Positions 1 through 13,202 of a stretch of DNA of 64,000 nt are shown here, in pieces. The translations under genes were made by a program, and so were the position numbers. Source of the DNA: Thioploca sp. Its GTDB lineage: Bacteria; Pseudomonadota; Gammaproteobacteria; Beggiatoales; Beggiatoaceae. The first letter of the stretch is position 1. Each line of letters opens with the position of its first letter. The stretch covers positions 1 to 64,000 of the forward strand of contig DAOUSL010000001.1 of the NCBI GenBank assembly GCA_030627235.1. The letters are read 5' to 3'. The notes under the pieces were generated by a model. That model did no database searches. It worked only from the letters and a program-made list of their open reading frames with translations, and was not told the DNA's origin.

Positions 1-2
1 GT

Positions 3-191
3 ATTGAACGTTTTAATTGCACCATGAGACAACGAATTAATCTCACATTCGTTCGTTACTTAGTTGCTCGTCTTGTTAGAAGCACACTTTCTTTCTCTAA
101 AAAACTTTCTAATCATATTGGAGCTATATGGATTTTCATTTTTATCCTTCACTTTGATTATAAACTTTTTTTGAGCTTCTTAATACTTTTT
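3..191 (+). pseudogene. IS1-family transposase C-terminal remnant (truncated at the window edge, frameshifted near its end)
   Basis: Frame 3 from base 3 reads IERFNCTMRQRI...ARLVRSTLSFSKKLSNHIGAIWIFI, matching the IS1 InsAB C-terminus (ERFN.T.RQR..RLVRKTLSFSKKLENHIGAIWYFI). There is an extra ~9-residue insertion, and the expected ending (HFYPSL*) is in another frame. Confidence 0.75.
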
Positions 192-734
192 ATCTATATT
201 TTTGTAATACTTTCCGTAACTTCAGTTAAACTAATATAAATTACTAGTTCGATTATTATATAACTAATATGTAACTACCTACCATAGCAAAACTAAAAGC
301 TGTAACAATTTCTTTATAATGCGGTATACTTTATCATGTTATTCTTTCTCTTTTTTCTAATTGATTACACACCCAACTTAATAGTATTGTTAATCGTCTA
401 CCAGTATACAGCAATCTATAGAACTATATGAAACAAGAAAAACCTATTCAAATATTAAATTAACATCTAATTTAACAGCAGTTCGTAAGTTGTATAAATA
501 AAACGTCATATATCATCCCCACCATAATTAATATTATTCAAACTTATAAATTAATTTTATTTGTAAATGCGTAAATCCTATATAAAATAATTTTTAAGTT
601 GTGTCGCATTATGCAAATAACTATTATCTAATTTTAATAAAATTAATAAAAAATATTATATATCATATAATTATGTAAATAGGTAAAGTTATTGCTTAAT
701 ATTTAGCATAATATATTTTGAAAGGAAAATACAA

Positions 735-1370
735 ATGTCATACATTACATTAATAAATACAATAGATAATACTAATATAACTAAACGTTTATTTGATATT
801 ATCATTTCAGCAATAATTTTAATATTATTAAGTCCTATATTTTTAATTGTAGCTTTCTTAATTAAATATGACTCAAAAGGATCAGTATTTTTTTCTCAAA
901 ATAGAGTTGGCAAAAATGAAAATGAATTTAAAATGTGGAAATTTCGTTCCATGTATATTGATGCTGAAGAACGTAAAGCTGAATTAATGAAACAAAACGA
1001 AATGAATGGTGGCGTATTATTTAAAATGAAAAATGATCCCCGTATTACTTATATAGGTCGTTTTATTCGTAAATTTTCTATTGATGAATTACCACAATTA
1101 TGGAATGTACTGATTGGTGATATGTCTTTGGTAGGCCCACGTCCTCCATTACCAAAAGAAGTTGAACAATATACTATTAAACAATTACGACGTTTAGAAG
1201 TAACTCCTGGGATTACCTGTATTTGGCAAGTATCGGGTCGGTCTGATATTCCATTTTCACAACAAGTAGAATTAGATATAAAATATATTGAAAATCAATC
1301 ATTTATTAGTGATATGATAATACTTTTTAAAACTATACCAGCAGTGTTACAAGCAAAAGGCTCATATTAA
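735..1370 (+). CDS. Sugar transferase (undecaprenyl-phosphate glycosyl-1-phosphate transferase type)
   Basis: KRLFDIIISAIILILLSPIFLIVAFLIK...WKFRSMYIDAE...KFSIDELPQLWNVLIGDMSLVGPRPPLPKEV...GITCIWQVSGRSDI are typical bacterial sugar transferase motifs. Confidence 0.9.
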   Translation: MSYITLINTIDNTNITKRLFDIIISAIILILLSPIFLIVAFLIKYDSKGSVFFSQNRVGKNENEFKMWKFRSMYIDAEERKAELMKQNEMNGGVLFKMKNDPRITYIGRFIRKFSIDELPQLWNVLIGDMSLVGPRPPLPKEVEQYTIKQLRRLEVTPGITCIWQVSGRSDIPFSQQVELDIKYIENQSFISDMIILFKTIPAVLQAKGSY

Positions 1371-1659
1371 ATATCAAAATATATTAAAAAAATTTCTAAT
1401 ACATTCTTAGTGGAAGTTAAATTTTCCAACTTATGCTAATGTTTGGATTGATTTGATTGAAAAAACTAGAATAAATCTATGTAAATTTTTATTTACCAAA
1501 AAAATAAATGGTCAATTTTATTGTAATTAATAATATTTTTTTTCACAAACACTACCAATTTTCCATTAATTAATTTAGCATATACTGTTATCCTGATTTG
1601 AATAGTATTTTAAGACATGATTAAATGTCTATTATTAACTACCTCATAAACAAGATTAG

Positions 1660-3162
1660 GTGCTAATTTTGGAAGAGCAACAACATCGTAACGCACTCCC
1701 ACACGGTTTCAAATTATTTGAATATGAAATCCAATCTGTACTAGGGAAACCAGGTGGTTTTGGTATCACATACCTAGCTATAGATACTCATTTGCGACAA
1801 TCAGTAGCTATTAAAGAATATTTACCCAGTGATTTTGCTATACGTGAAGGTAGGAGCACGGTTTATGTAAAATCATCATCTTATGATGAATCGTTCAAAT
1901 GGGGTTTAAAGTGTTTTATTGAAGAAGCCCAAGTACTTGCAAAATTTAATCATCATAATATCATAAGAGTTTCACGTTTTTTTGAATCTAATGGTACTGC
2001 CTATATGGTAATGGAGTATCAGAACGGTCAAAGTTTGACTGAGTTTTTAAAAGAACGGAGAGTTTTAACTGAAGAAGAATTAAAAAAACTAGTAATACCA
2101 TTGCTTGAAGGATTAGAAGAAATTCATCATTCTGGTGTATTACATAGAGATATAAAACCAAATAATATATATATTAGAGATGATAATACTCCTGTTTTGC
2201 TTGATTTTGGTTCGGCTAGATTTGCAATAGGCCAAAAAACTCGTAGTGTTACTAGTATAGTTACTCCTGGTTATGCTCCATTAGAGCAGTATGATAATGA
2301 GATTAAAGATCAAGGGCCTTGGACTGATATTTATGCTCTTGGTGCAGTAATGTACAATGCAATTACTGGTGAATCTCCGCCAGCTGCAACTCGTCGGGTT
2401 ATGAAAGATCCAATGATTCCAGCTGTGAAGGTTGGTGCTGGTAGATATAGCCGCAGTTTATTATTGGCAATTGATTGGGCTTTGCAACTTAGTGAAGAAG
2501 ATCGTCCACAAACAGTAGATCAATGGCGAGATAAAATGTTGGCCACGTCTGAAGATGTGCCAAAAGAAATATTTACTCCTAAACAATATTGGAATTTAAT
2601 TAATATTATTGGGCTTGGGATTATTATATTGCTTTGCGTTATCACTAGTTATTATGGTTATAAAAATTATACTTACAGTATTGAATTACAAAATATGCAA
2701 CATGTTTTAAGTCAAACTAATCTTAGAGTTTTACAAGAACAAAATTCATGTAAAGCAGAAAGAAAACATTTAAAATTAGAAAGAGCTAAACATAAAAAAT
2801 GTAAGGCTAAATATAATGAAGCTACTGGTTTATTAAAAGAGGTTGAGCGTTTTAAGATAGGAAATGAAATTTCACAGACAGGCATATTAGAGACTAAACC
2901 AACTGGTTTTAAAACTAAGCAATACTATACTGTTATTAATGTTACACCAACTGATACTCTAAATATGCGTGAATTTGCTGGTACAATAAATGGTAAAATT
3001 GGCGAAATACCATCAGTTGGAGTTTGTATTGAATATTTGGGTAATTTTAGATTTAGAAAAGGTGGATTATGGGTCAAAGTACGTTATGAAAATATAGAAG
3101 GTTGGGTACATTCTTATTTTTTGAATGCAGCTGAAAATGGTTGTGGGGAAATAAGTGAATAA
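1660..3162 (+). CDS. Serine/threonine protein kinase with TM helix, coiled coil and C-terminal SH3-like domain
   Basis: GTG start. Kinase motifs VAIKEYLP, VLHRDIKPNNIYI, LLDFGSAR and APLEQY; TM helix IIGLGIIILLCVITSYYGY; C-terminus TLNMREFAGTINGKIGEIPSVG...WVKVRYENIEGWVHSYFL resembles a bacterial SH3 domain. Confidence 0.88.
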   Translation: MLILEEQQHRNALPHGFKLFEYEIQSVLGKPGGFGITYLAIDTHLRQSVAIKEYLPSDFAIREGRSTVYVKSSSYDESFKWGLKCFIEEAQVLAKFNHHNIIRVSRFFESNGTAYMVMEYQNGQSLTEFLKERRVLTEEELKKLVIPLLEGLEEIHHSGVLHRDIKPNNIYIRDDNTPVLLDFGSARFAIGQKTRSVTSIVTPGYAPLEQYDNEIKDQGPWTDIYALGAVMYNAITGESPPAATRRVMKDPMIPAVKVGAGRYSRSLLLAIDWALQLSEEDRPQTVDQWRDKMLATSEDVPKEIFTPKQYWNLINIIGLGIIILLCVITSYYGYKNYTYSIELQNMQHVLSQTNLRVLQEQNSCKAERKHLKLERAKHKKCKAKYNEATGLLKEVERFKIGNEISQTGILETKPTGFKTKQYYTVINVTPTDTLNMREFAGTINGKIGEIPSVGVCIEYLGNFRFRKGGLWVKVRYENIEGWVHSYFLNAAENGCGEISE

Positions 3163-4087
3163 AGCTATTTTATTTTTTATAATTATAATATTACCTTTAG
3201 TAAGCAAAGCCAATTATCTGGAGAATATTTCATTTACTGATTCTACCATTACAATTCAACATAATGGTTGTTATTTGAAACAGTCAATTGAGGAACAAAA
3301 TAAGCTTATAATAGTATTAGATAATTGTAAAACTATAAAAGGAAAAATTATAGTCTCACATCCTAATGTAACTGATATCCATTGGGCTCAACATGATAAA
3401 GAAGTAGTATGGCTAGTTGTAACTTTTTTGGATAAATATAGTTTTGAAGTAAACTTATCTAAACATCAATATAAAATATGTTTATCGGATTGCGAACAAT
3501 CTGTTAATGGATTGCTCAAAATAAATGGCATTTTGCTACAAATACCAATACAGAATATGTCTATAAATGACTTTTTAGACAATTCTATTGGTTTTTTACC
3601 TAAAAATATAGTTAAGGATGGTTTGCCACATTTTGGATCTAAACGTGATGATTGGTGTAATAAAAAACGATTACATCATGGATACGATATTTATGTTAAT
3701 AACGTCAATGTAATTGCTACAGCCTATGGCAAAGTGACTAAAGTTAAACAGAGCAAACGATCAGGTCTTTATGTTAAATTACATCATGAAAATGAACTTG
3801 ATACCCTTTATATCCATTTAAGAAAATCTTTAGTAATAGAAGGTCAAATAGTTCGGGCTGGTGATATAATTGGTAAAATAGATGGCCCAGTAGGTAATGC
3901 AATCGATCCACAACTACATTTTGAAATTAAGTCCAATAATAAAAGTATTGATCCACTGCCTTTTATTGAACAGTTTTATCAATTTGATAGTAAAATTATA
4001 GCTAAAATTAACAAATATAAAAAACTGTTAATAAATAATATTATTATTCGAAATAACCAAGTTAATAAATTTTTAAATTCACGATAA
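3155..4087 (+). CDS. Secreted M23 (LytM-like) peptidase domain protein
   Basis: Signal peptide-like N-terminus; HHGYDIYVNN (HxxxD), LYIHLRKS, VRAGDIIGKIDGPVGNAIDPQLHFEI. Overlaps the upstream kinase ORF by 8 nt. Confidence 0.8.
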   Translation: MNKAILFFIIIILPLVSKANYLENISFTDSTITIQHNGCYLKQSIEEQNKLIIVLDNCKTIKGKIIVSHPNVTDIHWAQHDKEVVWLVVTFLDKYSFEVNLSKHQYKICLSDCEQSVNGLLKINGILLQIPIQNMSINDFLDNSIGFLPKNIVKDGLPHFGSKRDDWCNKKRLHHGYDIYVNNVNVIATAYGKVTKVKQSKRSGLYVKLHHENELDTLYIHLRKSLVIEGQIVRAGDIIGKIDGPVGNAIDPQLHFEIKSNNKSIDPLPFIEQFYQFDSKIIAKINKYKKLLINNIIIRNNQVNKFLNSR

Positions 4088-4089
4088 TT

Positions 4090-5247
4090 ATGTTTAAACC
4101 AAATATTCATCTTTGTTTAGTTCACAATACAGCGACTTCTAATGTAACTCCAGCATTAGATCCAGATTTTCGTCCCGATGAAGTCATTTTATTACACAGT
4201 CCTAAAGAAGATTACCATGCCAATTGTATGGAAGCAGTATTAAAACCAGTAGGAATTAAAGTATCAAGATGGAAAATCCAAGATACTAGAGATGTTGAGC
4301 ATATTTGTGAACGAGTTTTGGAATTAATGATAGAAAAAGAAAATGAGAATATTGCTCTAAATGTTAGTGGTGGTACTCGTCCTATGAGTATTGCAGCTTA
4401 TGAAGTATTTAAAGAATTTGACAAACCTATTTTTTATGTTAACCCTGAAACTGATTGTATTAGCTGGATTAATCGTAAAGATTTTGCTTCATTTAATGTT
4501 GCAGACCGAATAAAATTACCTGCATTTTTACATGCTCATGGTGCTGAGGTAAGTGATCAAGGTAAGCATTCTGGTGTCCCAAATGAATTGCGTCATTTGA
4601 CCAAACAGTTAGTCCAATATGCAGAAGTTTTGTCTAAACCATTATCTGCAATTAATTGGTTAGCTCAACAAGCTGAAAAGGATTTAAAATCTCCAACTTT
4701 ATCTATTGGTCAACAAAATTGGCATGAATTACAAGTATTAATCAATCAATTTGCTGAAATAGGTTTGTTGGAATACAAACAAGATTGTTTATACTTTAAA
4801 AATGAAGAAGCTCGATTTTTTGTTAATGGTGGTTGGTTAGAAGTTTACACTTATGGTTTATTATATGGATTGCGTAGTGATATTCCTAAAATACAAGATG
4901 TTGGACGTAGTGTAGAGCTTAATCGTGATAGTACTGGTAAGGCAGTTAAAAATGAATTAGATGTAGCTTTTTTACATAATAATCATTTGTATATTATCGA
5001 ATGTAAAACTAAACGTTTCATCAATACTAACAATGAACAAGCAGATAGTCATGCTGCCGATGCTTTGTATAAACTAGATACTCTAAAATGGTTGCTTGGG
5101 GGAATTCATACCAAAGTTATGTTGGTTAGTTATCAACCTTTATCTCCATGGGATAAACAAAGAGCTAAAGATTTGGAAATAGAAACTTGTACAGCCAATC
5201 AACTGGTAAGATTAGAAGGGGCTTTAAAACGTTGGATAAATAATTGA
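4090..5247 (+). CDS. Card1/Can2-like CARF domain nuclease (DUF1887 family)
   Basis: CARF-like N-terminus with ALNVSGGTRPMSIAAYEVFK (DUF1887 'NLTGGTK.M...A' motif); C-terminal PD-(D/E)XK-like motifs GGWLEVYTY...KNELDVAFLHNNHLYIIECKTKR. Confidence 0.82.
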   Translation: MFKPNIHLCLVHNTATSNVTPALDPDFRPDEVILLHSPKEDYHANCMEAVLKPVGIKVSRWKIQDTRDVEHICERVLELMIEKENENIALNVSGGTRPMSIAAYEVFKEFDKPIFYVNPETDCISWINRKDFASFNVADRIKLPAFLHAHGAEVSDQGKHSGVPNELRHLTKQLVQYAEVLSKPLSAINWLAQQAEKDLKSPTLSIGQQNWHELQVLINQFAEIGLLEYKQDCLYFKNEEARFFVNGGWLEVYTYGLLYGLRSDIPKIQDVGRSVELNRDSTGKAVKNELDVAFLHNNHLYIIECKTKRFINTNNEQADSHAADALYKLDTLKWLLGGIHTKVMLVSYQPLSPWDKQRAKDLEIETCTANQLVRLEGALKRWINN

Positions 5248-5328
5248 ACTAGGTGTGGCTTTTAAAAAACTGGCACTAATATTGCTGCAAATAAAAGTGC
5301 CATAATGAGGAACTACTCCTACCTAGTT
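5247..5328. other. Nested inverted repeat in a convergent intergenic region
   Basis: Outer arms AACTAGGT (5247-5254) / ACCTAGTT (5321-5328); inner arms TGGCACT (5271-5277) / AGTGCCA (5296-5302). Confidence 0.5.
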
Positions 5329-5419
5329 TTGGTTATGGTGTCTTGGGTGCTGGTCACACTCAAGTGCACCGTCATTTTGCCTATAACATCATAAACAACC
5401 TACCAAATCGGCAATAATA

Positions 5420-6433
5420 TTAATTTAAATTTTTTCTAAACCAAGGTAAAATAAATATTAGCATTAATCCAACCAATAAATAAAATCTTTCATGCCACAA
5501 TTTTTGTAAAGTTTTATCTTGAGTAGCAGCGGAAATACTATTATCAATTGCATCTAAAATGCTTTTGGTGTCTAAAGTACGATAATCAGCCTTATAATAA
5601 ACACCTTTACCAGCATCTGCTAATTGACGTAAATAATCTTCATTCAAACGTGAAATTACTACTTCACCATTTTTATCTTTTTGCCAATTGCCATCTTTAA
5701 TTGGGATCACGTCACCTTGGGTAGTTCCAACCCCTAGACTATGTAGATTAAAATCTCCTTTTTGTACCAATCGTAAACTACTTTTGAAATCTTGTTCATC
5801 AAAATCCCCATCACTTATGAGCAATAAATGTGGAACTGCATTATTCACAGCTTGTCCTTTTAACCAATTAACAGCATCTTCAATAGCTAAAGTAAGACGG
5901 CTACCTTGGATTGGTAATAAGTCAATATCAATTTCATACAATAAATGACGTAAGGTCTGATAATCATCTGTCAAAGGGGCTACTAAATGTGGAATACCAG
6001 CAAATACTAATAATCCAATATATATATTTTTATCTTGATTTAGTAATTCTTCAATATCTTGTATAGCTTGTTCTAAACGAGAATGAGGTAGGTCTGTAAC
6101 TCGCATAGATTCTGATAAATCTAATAAAATCATTAAATTGGCATTCTGTCGCCAAACTTCTTGTTTTTCATAATCCCAACGTGGTCCTGCTAATGCTAAT
6201 ACACCAAACAGCCATAATAATGCCCACCAAATATATTCTTTAGAATTTATTTTTGATGATGAATTTGAATTAACTAATAAATGTGGTAATAAATTAGGAT
6301 CAGCAAATTGCCGTACTCTTTTATGATGATTAACACGTAATTTTAATGCAAAAACTATTAAAGCCACTATTACTGGTATAATAATGGCAAAAAACCATAT
6401 TGGATTGGCAAAATTAAACTCTGAAAAGGTCAT
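5420..6433 (-). CDS. VWA domain-containing membrane protein (BatA-like)
   Basis: N-terminal TM, LMILLDLSESMRVTDLPHSRLEQA (MIDAS-like), LLISDGDFDEQDF, C-terminal TM helix. Confidence 0.85.
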   Translation of the reverse strand: MTFSEFNFANPIWFFAIIIPVIVALIVFALKLRVNHHKRVRQFADPNLLPHLLVNSNSSSKINSKEYIWWALLWLFGVLALAGPRWDYEKQEVWRQNANLMILLDLSESMRVTDLPHSRLEQAIQDIEELLNQDKNIYIGLLVFAGIPHLVAPLTDDYQTLRHLLYEIDIDLLPIQGSRLTLAIEDAVNWLKGQAVNNAVPHLLLISDGDFDEQDFKSSLRLVQKGDFNLHSLGVGTTQGDVIPIKDGNWQKDKNGEVVISRLNEDYLRQLADAGKGVYYKADYRTLDTKSILDAIDNSISAATQDKTLQKLWHERFYLLVGLMLIFILPWFRKNLN

Positions 6434-6801
6434 GTTCCTAATTTTCTATATTTAAAACATATTTTGGAAGTATAACATATAATTTTATTTCTGCACTATT
6501 TACAATTTTACTTTACATATTCATTTCAAAATTTAATAACTATTTTAATAAATTATAATTTTTTTAGAATAAATTTATTCTAGATTAAGAATTATTTTAA
6601 CAACTATTGATACAATTACCTGTATTTATCATATTTTACATACTAAACCATATCCTTCCAATCCATAAAAATCTCTAATCAATTTAATAAATAGAATATT
6701 TACTAAAAAGTAGTAGAATATATAATCCGTAATTAAGACTATTTACACAAACATACGATTTACGATTATTTAATTAAGAATTATTAACAAAGGAGCCATA
6801 A

Positions 6802-9459
6802 ATGGCAGAATATCCAGATATTGATCCGCAAGAAACCCAGGAATGGATGGATGCTTTGGAAAGCGTACTAGCCAATGATGGTGAAAAGCGAGCTCATTTT
6901 CTATTGGAAAAAATGATTGATAAAGCCCGTCGTTCTGGGACTTATATTCCCCATAGTGCTAATACTGCTTACGTCAATACAATTCCATATAATCAAGAAG
7001 AACATACTCCAGGTGATCCAGAATTAGAATGGAAAATACGTTCTTTAATTCGTTGGAATGCTATGGCAATGGTGGTACAAGCCAATCGACAAAGCTCTGA
7101 ACTAGGTGGCCATATAGCTACTTTTGCTTCTATTGCAACTTTATATGATGTTGGTTTTAATCATTTTTTTCATGCTAAATCTGCTAATCACGGTGGCGAT
7201 GTAATCTATTTTCAAGGTCATTCAGCACCAGGTATTTATGCACGAGCTTTTTTAGAAGGTCGTTTAACTGAAGAGCAAATGTTAAACTTTCGTCAAGAGG
7301 TAAATGGCAACGGATTATCTTCATATCCTCATCCTTGGTTGATGCCAGATTTTTGGCAATTTCCTACAGTGTCTATGGGTTTAGGTCCAATCATGGCGAT
7401 TTATCAAGCTCGCTTTATGAAATATCTGCATGATCGAGGCATTGCGAATACTGAAAATAGGAAAATTTGGGTATTTACTGGCGATGGAGAAATGGATGAA
7501 CCAGAAGCCTTGGGAGCTATTGCATTAGCAGCTAGAGAAAAGCTAGATAATTTAATTTTTGTAGTCAATTGCAATTTACAACGACTGGATGGCCCAGTGC
7601 GTGGTAACAGCTCTATAATCCAAGAGTTGGAAGGGGATTTTCGGGGTTCTGGTTGGAATGTTATCAAAGTAATTTGGGGATCATATTGGGATTCTTTATT
7701 AGCACGAGATAAAAAAGGGTTACTCCGCAAACGAATGGAAGAAGCGGTTGATGGTGAATATCAGAATTATAAAGCTAAAGGTGGTGCTTATACCAGAGAG
7801 CATTTCTTCGGTAAATATCCAGAACTGAAAGAAATGGTTGCTAATATGACTGATAATGATATTTGGCGACTAAATCGTGGAGGTCATGATCCTCACAAGA
7901 TTTATGCTGCCTATGCTGCGGCAGTTAAACATAAAGATCAACCTACTGTTATCATTGCTAAAACCGTGAAAGGTTATGGTATGGGAGCTTCTGGTGAAGG
8001 TCAGAATATAACTCATCAACAGAAAAAGATGGGACAGAATGATATTCGTAGTTTTCGTGATCGTTTCAATTTACCAATTTCTGATGAACAGCTTACGGAA
8101 GTACCTTTTTATAAGCCGGCTGATGATAGTCCAGAAATGAAGTATTTGCATGAGCGTCGCCAATCTTTAGGTGGTTACTTACCATCTCGTAATAAGATTG
8201 CAACTCCAATTGAAGTACCAGAATTAAATGCCTTTGATGCTATGTTAAAAGGTAGTGGTGATCGGGAAATGTCAACTACCATGGCATTTGTACGGATACT
8301 TTCAACTTTAATTCGGGATAAAAAAATGGGCAAATATATTGTGCCTATTGTTCCGGATGAAGCTCGTACTTTTGGTATGGAAGGTTTATTTCGGCAGATT
8401 GGAATCTATTCTTCACAAGGTCAGCTATACGAACCACAAGATTCTGATCAAGTTATGTATTATCGGGAAGATAAAAAAGGGCAGATTATTGAAGAAGGTA
8501 TTTGCGAAGCTGGAGCAATGTCATCTTGGATAGCTGCTGCAACAGCTTACAGTACTCACGCTGTTAATATGGTACCTTTCTATGTATTTTACTCCATGTT
8601 TGGTTTTCAACGGATTGGTGATTTAGCTTGGGCAGCTGGCGATATGCGAGCTAGAGGTTTTCTGATTGGTGGTACAGCTGGTAGAACTACTTTAGCTGGC
8701 GAAGGTCTACAACATCAGGATGGTCATAGTTTAATGACGGCTTCCACTATTCCTAATTGTGTTGCTTACGATCCAGCTTTCTCTTATGAAATGGCGGTCA
8801 TAATTCAAGATGGCTTGCGAAGGATGTATAAAGAACAAGAAAATATTTTCTATTATATCACTGCCATGAATGAAAATTACACTCATCCAGCAATGCCAGA
8901 TGGAGTTGCCGAAGGTATTATTAAGGGCATATATTTATTTAAAGAAAGAACCACTAGTGAATTGAAAGTTCAATTGTTAGGTAGTGGAGCTATTTTACGA
9001 GAAGTGATTGCAGCTAGTTCTTTGTTGGCTGAAGACTTTGGAGTGTCAGCTAATATTTGGAGTGTAACTAGTTTTAATGAATTGCATCGACAGGGTAATG
9101 ATGTAGAACGGTGGAATATGTTACATCCAGAAGCAGAACCTCGCATAACTCACATTGCTGAATGTTTGCAAGATCGTAAAGGACCAATTATTGCTGCAAC
9201 GGATTATATTCGGGCTTATCCAAATCAAATTCGGTTTGGCATTCAACATAAATATTACTACGTGTTGGGTACAGATGGTTTTGGTCGTAGTGATTCTCGA
9301 AAACAATTACGGAAATTTTTTGAGGTAGATCGTTATAATATAGCAGTTGCAGCCCTTAAAGGATTGATGGATATGGGTAAATTACCAGCCAGTAAAGTTA
9401 CGGAAGCTATCCAAAAATATGGCTTAGATACTGAAAAACCAAATCCAATTACAGTTTAA
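6802..9459 (+). CDS. aceE: Pyruvate dehydrogenase E1 component (homodimeric type)
   Basis: 885 aa; SLIRWNAMAMVVQANR, GDGEMDEPEALGAI, NLQRLDGPVRGN, GYGMGASGEGQNITHQQKKM, DEARTFGMEGLFRQIGIY. Confidence 0.97.
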   Translation: MAEYPDIDPQETQEWMDALESVLANDGEKRAHFLLEKMIDKARRSGTYIPHSANTAYVNTIPYNQEEHTPGDPELEWKIRSLIRWNAMAMVVQANRQSSELGGHIATFASIATLYDVGFNHFFHAKSANHGGDVIYFQGHSAPGIYARAFLEGRLTEEQMLNFRQEVNGNGLSSYPHPWLMPDFWQFPTVSMGLGPIMAIYQARFMKYLHDRGIANTENRKIWVFTGDGEMDEPEALGAIALAAREKLDNLIFVVNCNLQRLDGPVRGNSSIIQELEGDFRGSGWNVIKVIWGSYWDSLLARDKKGLLRKRMEEAVDGEYQNYKAKGGAYTREHFFGKYPELKEMVANMTDNDIWRLNRGGHDPHKIYAAYAAAVKHKDQPTVIIAKTVKGYGMGASGEGQNITHQQKKMGQNDIRSFRDRFNLPISDEQLTEVPFYKPADDSPEMKYLHERRQSLGGYLPSRNKIATPIEVPELNAFDAMLKGSGDREMSTTMAFVRILSTLIRDKKMGKYIVPIVPDEARTFGMEGLFRQIGIYSSQGQLYEPQDSDQVMYYREDKKGQIIEEGICEAGAMSSWIAAATAYSTHAVNMVPFYVFYSMFGFQRIGDLAWAAGDMRARGFLIGGTAGRTTLAGEGLQHQDGHSLMTASTIPNCVAYDPAFSYEMAVIIQDGLRRMYKEQENIFYYITAMNENYTHPAMPDGVAEGIIKGIYLFKERTTSELKVQLLGSGAILREVIAASSLLAEDFGVSANIWSVTSFNELHRQGNDVERWNMLHPEAEPRITHIAECLQDRKGPIIAATDYIRAYPNQIRFGIQHKYYYVLGTDGFGRSDSRKQLRKFFEVDRYNIAVAALKGLMDMGKLPASKVTEAIQKYGLDTEKPNPITV

Positions 9460-9469
9460 GGGGAAAATT

Positions 9470-10777
9470 ATGTTACAAGAAATAAAGATTCCCGATCTTG
9501 GTGATTTTAAAGATGTACCAGTATTGGAGATTTTGATTAGTGTGGGTGATGCTATTGAGATAGAGCAATCTTTGTTGATTTTAGAAAGCGATAAGGCTTC
9601 AATGGAGATTCCTACTTCTCAAGCTGGGATTGTGCAGGAAATTAAGCTTAATGTTGGTGATATAGTCAATGCAGGAGCTGTAATAGCTACTTTAAATACG
9701 ACAGAAACTACAAAAATAACGAAAAATTCTATTTCAGAAACAGTTGAAAAACCAACTCAACCAATCGTAGAATCTGTAGAAGCATCACCACTTTATGTTC
9801 CTAATCCAGTAAATTCTAGCGAAATTAGAAAACCACATAATTTACCATCTTTTCCAAATACTCCAATTAAAATTAAACCTTCAGTCCATGCTGGACCAGC
9901 AGTACGCCATTTGGCTAGAGAGCTTGGGGCTGATTTGTTTAAAGTTAAAGGTAGTGGGCGCAAGCAACGTATTTTGAAACAAGATTTACAGGATTTTGTA
10001 AAACAAGTAATGACTGAAAATACTGTGCCAGCAATGTCTTTCAGTGGTTCTGGAATTCCACAACTTCCCGAGATTGATTTTAGCCAATTTGGAGAAACTA
10101 CTACAAAAAAATTGAGTCGGATTAAGAAGATATCTGGCAATCATTTACATACTGGTTGGTTAAATATTCCGCATGTTACGCAATTTGATGAGGTTGATAT
10201 TACTGAATTGGAAGCTTTCCGCAAGGATTTAGCCAAACAACGTGATATTAAAATGACTTTATTAGCTTTTGTGCTTAAAGGTTGTGCTTCAGCATTGCAG
10301 GAATTTCCTAATTTTAATGCTTCTTTGGATAGCAGTAAGGAAAATATTATTTTGAAGCATTACTGTAATATTGGGGTAGCAGTAGAAACTCCTAATGGTT
10401 TAATGGTTCCAGTGTTAAAAGATGTGAATAAAAAGGGATTATTTGAATTGGCTGAAGACTTGAAAGATTTGAGTCAAAAAGCTAGGAAAGGGAAGTTGTC
10501 GGTAGATGAAATGAAAGGTGGTTGTTTTACTATTACTAGTTTGGGTGGCATTGGTGGAACAGCTTTTACACCAATTATCAATGCCCCTGAAGTAGCTATT
10601 TTAGGTTTGTCTCGTTCTAAAATGCAACCAATTTATACTAATGGCGAGTTTGTACCACGTTTAATGTTGCCGTTATCTTTGTCATACGATCATCGAGTTA
10701 TTGATGGAGCTGATGGAGTACGATTTACCCAGTATTTAAGTTTTATTTTATCAGATGTAAGAAGATTATTGTTGTAA
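9470..10777 (+). CDS. aceF: Dihydrolipoyllysine acetyltransferase, pyruvate dehydrogenase E2 (single lipoyl domain)
   Basis: Lipoyl motif LILESDKASMEIP, E3-binding AVRHLARELGADLFKVKGSGRKQRILKQD, catalytic LPLSLSYDHRVIDGADG. Confidence 0.95.
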   Translation: MLQEIKIPDLGDFKDVPVLEILISVGDAIEIEQSLLILESDKASMEIPTSQAGIVQEIKLNVGDIVNAGAVIATLNTTETTKITKNSISETVEKPTQPIVESVEASPLYVPNPVNSSEIRKPHNLPSFPNTPIKIKPSVHAGPAVRHLARELGADLFKVKGSGRKQRILKQDLQDFVKQVMTENTVPAMSFSGSGIPQLPEIDFSQFGETTTKKLSRIKKISGNHLHTGWLNIPHVTQFDEVDITELEAFRKDLAKQRDIKMTLLAFVLKGCASALQEFPNFNASLDSSKENIILKHYCNIGVAVETPNGLMVPVLKDVNKKGLFELAEDLKDLSQKARKGKLSVDEMKGGCFTITSLGGIGGTAFTPIINAPEVAILGLSRSKMQPIYTNGEFVPRLMLPLSLSYDHRVIDGADGVRFTQYLSFILSDVRRLLL

Positions 10778-10787
10778 ATTTAACCAG

Positions 10788-10808
10788 TGTCGAGGCTTTG
10801 CCTTGACA
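10788..10808 (+). terminator. Hairpin downstream of aceF (putative terminator)
   Basis: TGTCGAGG-CTTTG-CCTTGACA stem-loop immediately after the aceF stop; no strong T-tract follows. Confidence 0.4.
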
Positions 10809-10970
10809 TTCATCATGAATAATATTTATATAGTTTGACTTTATGTTATGACTATAATAATATTGCATATTTATGGTATAAAGTAGGAAAAAAAATAATT
10901 GCAATCTATGTCGTAATTATCCATTCAAATAAATTTATAGAAGTTACTAGCAAATTATTTAGGAATCAAT

Positions 10971-11831
10971 ATGCGAATTAAATTAACAAAAGAAGCTGTA
11001 ATAAAAGCAATTCAAGTTTTAGAGCAACAGGACATTTACCCTTCAATTGAGAGGATTCGTAAAATAACAGGTGGCTCAAGTAAACGTATTTCACAACTAA
11101 GAAAAGAACTTACAAGTACAGCAGCTACTACTACAGTTGAAAATATTAATAATTTTGAATCTAAAATCATGTCGCAAGATGCTGTTTCACGTATCGAATT
11201 ACGCATGATGCAGATGGAAATGTTATTTACTCAACGTTTTGCAGATATCGATGCTAAATTTGCTCTTAAAAATGATGTGGCTAATAAGAGTAATAAAATC
11301 ACAGAATTACAGGATGAAAATAAAAATCTAAAATCAAAAAATTCTTTACTTATTAAACAATTAAATCAAGAGTTAACTAGAGTTAAGGAATTAAGTAAGT
11401 TACTCCAACAAGCTAATAATAAAGTTACTGAGTTAGAAAAATCTAAAAATACCCAATCAAATATTAGCACTGAAGATGAAGATGAAGTTGATATAAAAAA
11501 CAAAGTTATTCAACAATTTAATATTCTTATGGAAGCTCAATGGGATGAAAAACAAAATGCAGAAATTGCCTTACAAAAAGTTGCACGACAATGGTTAATG
11601 GAAAAATGGCCAGAAGACTCACATTTATTAGATAATGCAGTGTTGGATAGTAATATTAATGAAAAACGCTATGTGATTGTTTCTATCTCAAAAGACATAA
11701 AAACAGAGCATATTTATATTGTTCATTGTCTTATTTTTCATCGTGATACGGAAGAATTAGTAAGACAACGTAAGGATTATATCAGAGCTAAATCAGCACA
11801 TGATAAAGCTCATCAATTACTTAATGGTTAG
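10971..11831 (+). CDS. KfrA-like DNA-binding/coiled-coil protein
   Basis: N-terminal IKAIQVLEQQDIYPSIERIRKITGGSSKRISQLRKEL resembles the KfrA N-terminal DNA-binding domain; followed by a long coiled coil. Confidence 0.6.
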   Translation: MRIKLTKEAVIKAIQVLEQQDIYPSIERIRKITGGSSKRISQLRKELTSTAATTTVENINNFESKIMSQDAVSRIELRMMQMEMLFTQRFADIDAKFALKNDVANKSNKITELQDENKNLKSKNSLLIKQLNQELTRVKELSKLLQQANNKVTELEKSKNTQSNISTEDEDEVDIKNKVIQQFNILMEAQWDEKQNAEIALQKVARQWLMEKWPEDSHLLDNAVLDSNINEKRYVIVSISKDIKTEHIYIVHCLIFHRDTEELVRQRKDYIRAKSAHDKAHQLLNG

Positions 11832-11855
11832 GATAGGTCTTGCTAAATTAAAAAC

Positions 11856-13202
11856 TTATATATCATCTTCACATTGCTGTTCATCCATATCTGGACAATG
11901 CAACCAATCTGGTAATGGAGTCATTTCACCATTCATATTCCAGCCTTGTTGAATGGCTAATTCATTAAGATAATCAATTCGTTCCTGATTTTTAGGATGA
12001 CTAGAAAAATATTTGGAAACTTGCGGAAATCCTTCAGCTTTAGATTTTTTAAGTTCATCAAAGAAATCGAGACTATGACCACCATGTCCATAATGATTTA
12101 CTACTCTAGCTAAACCATATTCATCTGCTTCAGTTTCTTGGTTTCTACTATAATGCAACATAGTAAATTCACCAGTCCAAGATACAACACTTGATAATCC
12201 TTCTGAAGAACTGGAAGTACCAATACCAGCAGCTGCTAAAGCAGATATAACAACCAAAGAACGACCTAAACTCTTAAGTGGGTCTTTATTTTGAAAATGG
12301 CCTAATTCATGTGCTAATACAAAAGCTAATTCATTTTCTGATTTTACTTCTCGTAACAAACCAGTATTTATTAAAACATGTCCACCAGGTATAATTGCAG
12401 CATTTACGATATCAGTATCAAGCAAGTGAATCTTAAGAGGAATACGAAGATTTTCTTCCACATTCAACATATCCTGTAATAATTCATCCAAATAGTAAAT
12501 TCGTCTATCATCAATAACTTCGGTCTCTGATATTGTATTATATAATATATTGCCAACCCTATTTTCATTATCTGGACTAATTTTGGTAGTTAACCAACTT
12601 GCAGTATAACCTAACACCATAAAAATAATACCACTTACTACTACAACAATAGTTAGTAAATAAATAAAATTTATAATTGGATGGCGGCGGCGAGTTACAA
12701 CAACATCTTTTATTGGTTTTTCTACATATTTAATACTCATTTTATCTCCTTTTATCCCCGTTCCATATGCAATTACCTCAACAGAACCTGGATCAGTTTT
12801 ACCACCAAACCGACCACCTATAGCTACTGTTTCTAAACGAACATTTAAAACTTGGCTTGCTCCCCATTCAATTGCTTCTTCTTGCATTCTCAATATTGCT
12901 TCTCGACGACTTCTATCCAATAAACTTTCATATACAATAACCCTACCTCCTACTAAATTTCTTAACATTGCAGAAATCTTTTTGAAATAATCGATTGAGA
13001 TAACTACACTACCAGTTAATAATTTAGTTTCTGTAATACCGTCTGGTAAAGCTTGCTTGCTAAAAGTTGATACTGGTAGATTTAATACCTTTTTTTCTCG
13101 TTTTTGTAAATCCCGAAAATGTCGCTTTTCCCGATAACTACCAAATAAATATCCTAAAATTAGTAAAACTAATAGAATAATAAATTGCGGTGTACTTTCC
13201 AT
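11856..13202 (-). CDS. M48-family metallopeptidase with N-terminal YbjQ-like domain
   Basis: HELGHFQNKDPL zinc motif, ETEADEYGL; N-terminal LVGGRVIVYESLLDRSRREAILRMQEEAIEWGASQVLNVRLET matches the YbjQ/UPF0145 pattern. Confidence 0.88.
   Translation of the reverse strand: MESTPQFIILLVLLILGYLFGSYREKRHFRDLQKREKKVLNLPVSTFSKQALPDGITETKLLTGSVVISIDYFKKISAMLRNLVGGRVIVYESLLDRSRREAILRMQEEAIEWGASQVLNVRLETVAIGGRFGGKTDPGSVEVIAYGTGIKGDKMSIKYVEKPIKDVVVTRRRHPIINFIYLLTIVVVVSGIIFMVLGYTASWLTTKISPDNENRVGNILYNTISETEVIDDRRIYYLDELLQDMLNVEENLRIPLKIHLLDTDIVNAAIIPGGHVLINTGLLREVKSENELAFVLAHELGHFQNKDPLKSLGRSLVVISALAAAGIGTSSSSEGLSSVVSWTGEFTMLHYSRNQETEADEYGLARVVNHYGHGGHSLDFFDELKKSKAEGFPQVSKYFSSHPKNQERIDYLNELAIQQGWNMNGEMTPLPDWLHCPDMDEQQCEDDI

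Follow-up and report, generated by a model that had tools for sequence, protein, structure and literature searches.

A conserved orphan CARF nuclease with an altered ligand pocket in Beggiatoaceae, lying next to a kinase and LytM-fold pair in Thioploca

A 64,000-nucleotide stretch of a Thioploca sp. genome (the window, contig 33 of its assembly) contains three closely packed genes, here called K, P and C, the last of which resembles nucleases known from type III CRISPR systems. The original prediction, made from the letters alone, described three same-strand reading frames, the first two overlapping by 8 nt and the third following after a gap of 2 nt, and our coordinates confirm this arrangement (K 1660-3162, P 3155-4087 and C 4090-5247, all on the + strand). 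Two explanations were offered at that time: that kinase, peptidase and CARF effector are coupled as one module, or that C works together with a remote type III locus. We ask here whether either holds, and what C is likely to be if it does not. The features considered are as follows.

1660-3162, + strand: K, Ser/Thr kinase that carries a single membrane segment and an SH3_3 domain; member of a separate K-P pair
3155-4087, + strand: P, secreted LytM/M23-fold protein with an apparent signal peptide
4090-5247, + strand: C, 385 aa, predicted orphan CARF-PD-(D/E)XK nuclease of the Card1/Can2/VC1899 type; starts 2 nt downstream of the P stop codon
4117..4164, + strand: CARF strand-1 loop of C, residues 10-25 (LVHNTATSNVTPALDP); His12 at the SthCan2 Ser19 position by alignment
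4351..4386, + strand: CARF strand-4 loop of C, residues 88-99 (IALNVSGGTRPM); Arg97 at the SthCan2 Lys99 position by alignments
4801..5013, + strand: PD-(D/E)XK core of C, residues 238-308; E289, D291, E304 and K306 intact

Judged by its sequence, C is a full-length CARF nuclease of the DUF1887, or Card1-Can2-VC1899, type. Pfam reports Card1_endonuc (E 7e-30, 103.8 bits, cut-off 26.4) and CARF_Card1 (E 5e-10, 40.1 bits, cut-off 24.6), the latter marking an N-terminal CARF domain, and the PADLOC class of the protein is CARF4--CARF_PDDEXK (E 1e-121). Among solved structures, VC1899 (1xmx, E 1e-49) and Can2 (7bdv, E 4e-39) are its best relatives, and both match it from end to end. The same two are the best PDB fold matches of an AlphaFold model built from 12 orthologues (mean pLDDT 87; TM 0.81 to 1xmx). 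Residues E289, D291, E304 and K306 are invariant in the alignment of these 12 orthologues, at identities down to 42%, with E289/D291 aligning with Can2 E276/D278, and the motifs GGTR, GGWLE, NELDVAF and ECKTK consist of residues conserved in the alignments. The CARF motif and nuclease residues first noticed in the sequence are thus confirmed by Pfam, by the 1xmx/7bdv matches and by conservation, and the proposed comparison of 4090-5247 with Card1 and VC1899 gave agreement in both sequence and predicted structure. Among named relatives, Candidatus Halobeggiatoa sp. HSG11 and a Thioploca MAG are the closest that carry the gene; a scan of the genome-contig collection found three relatives only.

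The upstream genes fared differently from one another. K is a Ser/Thr kinase as first proposed, with Pkinase (E 7e-40) and C-terminal SH3_3 (4.5e-6) matches in Pfam, intact VAIK, HRD and DFG motifs, and a membrane helix near residue 320 predicted from sequence. Its match to the NCBIfam model antiphage_MADS6 (120.8 bits) falls below the cut-off of 460, and we rejected K as a MADS MAD6 kinase, the score reflecting generic kinase similarity. For P, the M23 fold stands (Peptidase_M23, E 2.7e-20; model fold matches to ShyA, EnvC, DipM and LytM), but the label of peptidase is not established. P retains H174, D178, H221 and H255 but lacks the full catalytic M23 residue set (HxxxD, H, HxH), as its HxH motif reads Q253-L-H255, a pattern found in 21/21 orthologues. 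Q253 occupies the site of the first His of HxH in catalytic M23 enzymes such as LytM, and peptidase activity of P is doubtful on this evidence.

K has relatives throughout the family. Orthologues of P were found in 23 family genomes, and in 21 of these K is its neighbour. These 21 mapped loci, with variable surroundings, define a conserved family pair (window 1660-4087 and 20 orthologous loci, L016, L018, L019, L040 and L100-L115), in which HxH is invariantly QxH. In one of them, the K gene of G022 (L018:5956-7360) appears split over two frames, by a frameshift or an assembly error. Our preferred reading of K-P is an envelope pair particular to the family, made up of a kinase whose SH3 domain is probably periplasmic and probably senses peptidoglycan, and of a LytM-fold partner; as an envelope-signalling pair it is apparently undescribed.

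C follows K-P in only four genomes, the host (G000), G002, G022 and G042, with P-C gaps of 2 nt, 2 nt, about 410 nt and about 90 nt, respectively; the other 17 of the 21 K-P loci are without C. The congener G004, whose C is 83% identical, has its K-P pair and its C on contigs 285 and 266, respectively. K-P and C are also found on different contigs in G012, G019 and G025, and K, P and C are all apart from one another in G009. Genes next to lone copies of C encode LptF, EF-G, a cytochrome, a GAF/PAS histidine kinase, an ABC transporter, a class I (E/Q) tRNA synthetase, QueF, a sulfate permease and GTP cyclohydrolase, with no conserved partner among the neighbourhoods compared. Promoter and terminator scans of the locus gave results equal to shuffles. 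The identities of K, P and C between genomes co-vary (Spearman 0.8, 28 pairs), as expected if each gene is mainly inherited vertically. The tight adjacency in two congeners makes co-transcription plausible there, but this adjacency is lineage-specific.

Gene-neighbourhood conservation had been named beforehand as a test that could refute a coupled module, and the trio is not co-conserved: it is adjacent in four genomes only, K-P mostly occurs without C, and C occurs without K-P. Comparative synteny therefore led us to reject K-P-C as a conserved module, and K and P look like neighbours of C rather than parts of one machine. The locus is a reminder that genes in one genome can be spaced like an operon by accident. 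A second, unrelated tight spacing of a C homologue and a peptidoglycan-enzyme-like gene occurs in G043, where a CHAP-domain amidase-like gene begins 3 nt downstream of the homologue (L026:8342-10024); this may be coincidence.

To determine whether a type III system is present, we searched the host genome (4.58-Mb assembly, 98.9% complete) with protein models and found no Cas10 palm, Cas1 or RAMP match, nor a match to SMODS cyclase (CD-NTase), looked for as an alternative cyclase, with the qualification that the models might miss an unusual Cas10 or cyclase and that the assembly may lack about 1% of the genome. Over the window, Rfam identified only two tRNAs, and positions 1-12000 contain no regularly spaced repeat array, the repeat families there looking like chance matches. 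The idea of a hidden type III locus in the host genome was rejected, as the Cas10 palm, Cas1 and RAMP models revealed none. The original prediction had reported no CRISPR locus in 64 kb and had proposed a genome-wide search for cas10 and cyclic nucleotide synthases; that search extends the absence to the whole assembly, with neither Cas10 nor SMODS found.

Across the 43 family genomes, strong Cas10 palm matches (E below 1e-20; weaker matches include GGDEF-like proteins) are present in 4/11 carriers of a C orthologue and 13/32 non-carriers (Fisher p = 1). Type III genes occur elsewhere in the genome in seven of the 11 carriers, as strong Cas10 in G002, G004, G013 and G022 and as RAMPs without strong Cas10 in G012, G019 and G042. 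Neither is found in G000, G009, G018 and G025, three of which are at least 98.9% complete, and G043, from another family, likewise carries a C homologue without strong Cas10 or any RAMP. None of the family orthologues (0/11) shares a contig with a Cas10 or RAMP match, whereas outside the family 10/16 examined homologues have RAMP genes on their own contig no more than about 6 kb away (Fisher p = 0.001, ignoring relatedness), and the homologue of G191 adjoins Cas6. The type III locus of G289 (L151:4739-9764) encodes three consecutive effectors of the CARF type, namely Csm6, a CARF-adenosine deaminase and a Can2-like nuclease. The proposal of a distant type III partner for C thus finds no support in the host genome and no Cas10 association across the family; action in trans is possible in the seven carriers with type III genes elsewhere.

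The cA4-site residues of Can2 that are common to Can1 are Ser19, Thr42, Lys99 and Tyr118 (PMC7969007). We find the corresponding S-(S/T)-K-Y pocket in 13/13 CRISPR-linked homologues with a readable N-terminus, SthCan2 counted. The pocket of C in the window, as inferred by alignment with Can2 and not from a complex, is His12-Ser37-Arg97-Tyr116; relative to Can2, one position is unchanged and two of the substitutions are conservative, and the Ser/Thr/Lys/Tyr set that binds cA4 in Can2 is not matched in the alignment. Throughout the Beggiatoaceae clade the four pocket positions are occupied, in order, by H/Y, S/G/A/N, R and Y (F in a single case). No part of the CARF domain is more conserved in this clade than the pocket loops: mean identity to the majority residue is 92% for the strand-1 loop and 98% for the strand-4 loop, compared to 72% for the rest of the domain.

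Other homologues unlinked to CRISPR have different pockets (Vibrio-type, D-D/V-R-V; G708, G-E-R-I; G629, G-A-R-V). VC1899 itself has Asp, Asp, Arg and Val at the Can2 cA4-site positions and is reported to have very little activity and no regulation by cA4 (PMC7969007). There are exceptions: G043, G310 and G576 are unlinked to CRISPR yet keep the pocket Lys and Tyr, and G043/G310, also without RAMPs, retain Ser and Lys, so that CRISPR loss is not always accompanied by pocket change. VC1899-type orphan CARF nucleases with the D-D/V-R-V pocket recur in the genus g297, presumably Vibrio (L135-L142, L145), where they are conserved rather than decaying; the one neighbourhood read adjoins a chemotaxis receptor and an MFS transporter. 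The G708 homologue (L148:7249-9985) immediately follows a TraG/TraD-like conjugation gene, a hint that another orphan lineage may have a role in mobile elements.

C is present in 14/96 related genomes, 12 of which carry close, near-full-length orthologues (11 in the family, and G043), and a profile search of 369 genomes of the class identified homologues in 18. In a maximum-likelihood tree the 11 Beggiatoaceae orthologues form one clade (support 100/99), with G043/G310 (another family, no RAMPs) as its sister and the type III-linked G289 as the next branch. The simplest history would be descent from a type III effector, because the clade and G043/G310 are nested beside G289; the tree is rooted by midpoint, and the direction of descent is one we infer. 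Between congeners, dN/dS of C is about 0.07-0.10 (dN 0.07-0.10 versus dS 0.8-1.3, the latter near saturation). Together with the conservation of the pocket loops, this low ratio indicates that the sequences of C in Beggiatoaceae are under constraint, not in decay.

The best reading of these sequence comparisons is that C is a CRISPR-decoupled CARF nuclease under selection. More specifically, C would be a ligand-activated DNA/RNA nuclease derived from type III Can2 effectors and now an independent chromosomal gene in Beggiatoaceae, to which we assign a probability of about 0.62. A putative C dimer would bind a small nucleotide-type ligand across the paired CARF pockets, the domains would close on binding, and the PD-(D/E)XK halves would nick or degrade nucleic acid, a predicted nuclease activity whose physiological role may be arrest of the cell or of an invader. 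K and P would be a separate envelope pair, upstream of C by chance. The ligand is probably other than Cas10-made cA4, because Cas10 is absent and the pocket is changed (Ser to His/Tyr, Lys to Arg). More tentatively, the Beggiatoaceae proteins might be receptors of a CRISPR-independent nucleotide signal, re-tuned to a messenger from a non-Cas10 enzyme, and one of several separate escapes of this protein family from type III CRISPR, the others being the Vibrio VC1899-like, G629 and G708 lineages, each with its own conserved pocket.

We consider it unlikely that C is an ordinary type III effector working in trans with a Cas10 complex that was recently lost or missed here. The superfamily is largely type III-associated, seven of the 11 carriers have strong Cas10 (four) or RAMP genes (three more), and Arg could replace Lys in phosphate binding, but the four family carriers without either include three nearly complete genomes, carriage of C shows no association with Cas10, C is never on one contig with type III genes, and the Beggiatoaceae pocket differs from those of all CRISPR-linked homologues. 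A dedicated signalling or defence module, with the kinase as sensor of envelope stress, P working on the wall and C serving as toxic effector, is improbable and already contradicted as an obligate arrangement: against the overlapping or 2-nt-spaced genes on one strand, and the gene order shared by G002, G022 and G042 (the last two with longer P-C gaps), stand the separate contigs of C and K-P in G004, G012, G019 and G025, the dispersal of K and P themselves in G009, and the 17/21 K-P loci without C. In addition, a signal peptide is probable for P but absent from C, so that nothing points to direct contact between the two.

Also very improbable is the reading of C as a degenerate relic that was "cast adrift" from CRISPR, the fate proposed for VC1899 (PMC7969007). 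C shares its orphan status and altered pocket with VC1899, an enzyme that in vitro showed little activity and did not respond to cA4, but a relic would decay, and C shows dN/dS of about 0.07-0.10 in congeners, catalytic residues that are invariant down to 42% identity and pocket loops that are 92-98% conserved. Compared with these alternatives, we favour the CRISPR-decoupled nuclease.

Orphan relatives such as VC1899 are already known; what is new here is a conserved orphan clade in Beggiatoaceae with an altered pocket. The VC1899 structure has been in the PDB since 2004. VC1899-family CARF genes outside CRISPR were noted in 2014, for example in a Delftia predicted DNA-transfer/Ter cluster (Makarova 2014, PMC4012209), and an orphan gene of the family was noted again in 2021, when VC1899 was tested with cA4 and described as a possible degenerate enzyme (PMC7969007). 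In the C clade, an entire group has an intact enzyme and a conserved but different pocket, in genomes not shown to be able to make cyclic oligoadenylates. This argues for a real second life of orphan CARF nucleases and offers concrete proteins and residues for a ligand search.

VC1899 of Vibrio cholerae (1xmx) is the best sequence and fold match to C, and both are orphans with an intact nuclease site and a pocket Lys replaced by Arg. VC1899 differs in its acidic pocket (Asp-Asp-Arg-Val) and separate tree branch, and the enzyme is reported to be nearly inactive and not cA4-regulated (PMC7969007). The Delftia-type genes are embedded in another cluster, whereas C belongs to a clade of its own and mostly stands by itself among housekeeping genes. 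Card1 of Treponema succinifaciens (6wxw, 6xl1) shares the Pfam nuclease domain and fold of C, but is only 18-19% identical by fold alignment and is a type III effector activated by cA4. Can2 of Sulfobacillus thermosulfidooxidans (SthCan2, 7bdv) is like C in its CARF and PD-(D/E)XK architecture, active-site E/D and fold; it is type III-associated with the pocket Ser19-Thr42-Lys99-Tyr118, whereas C has His12-Ser37-Arg97-Tyr116 in a genome with no detectable type III genes.
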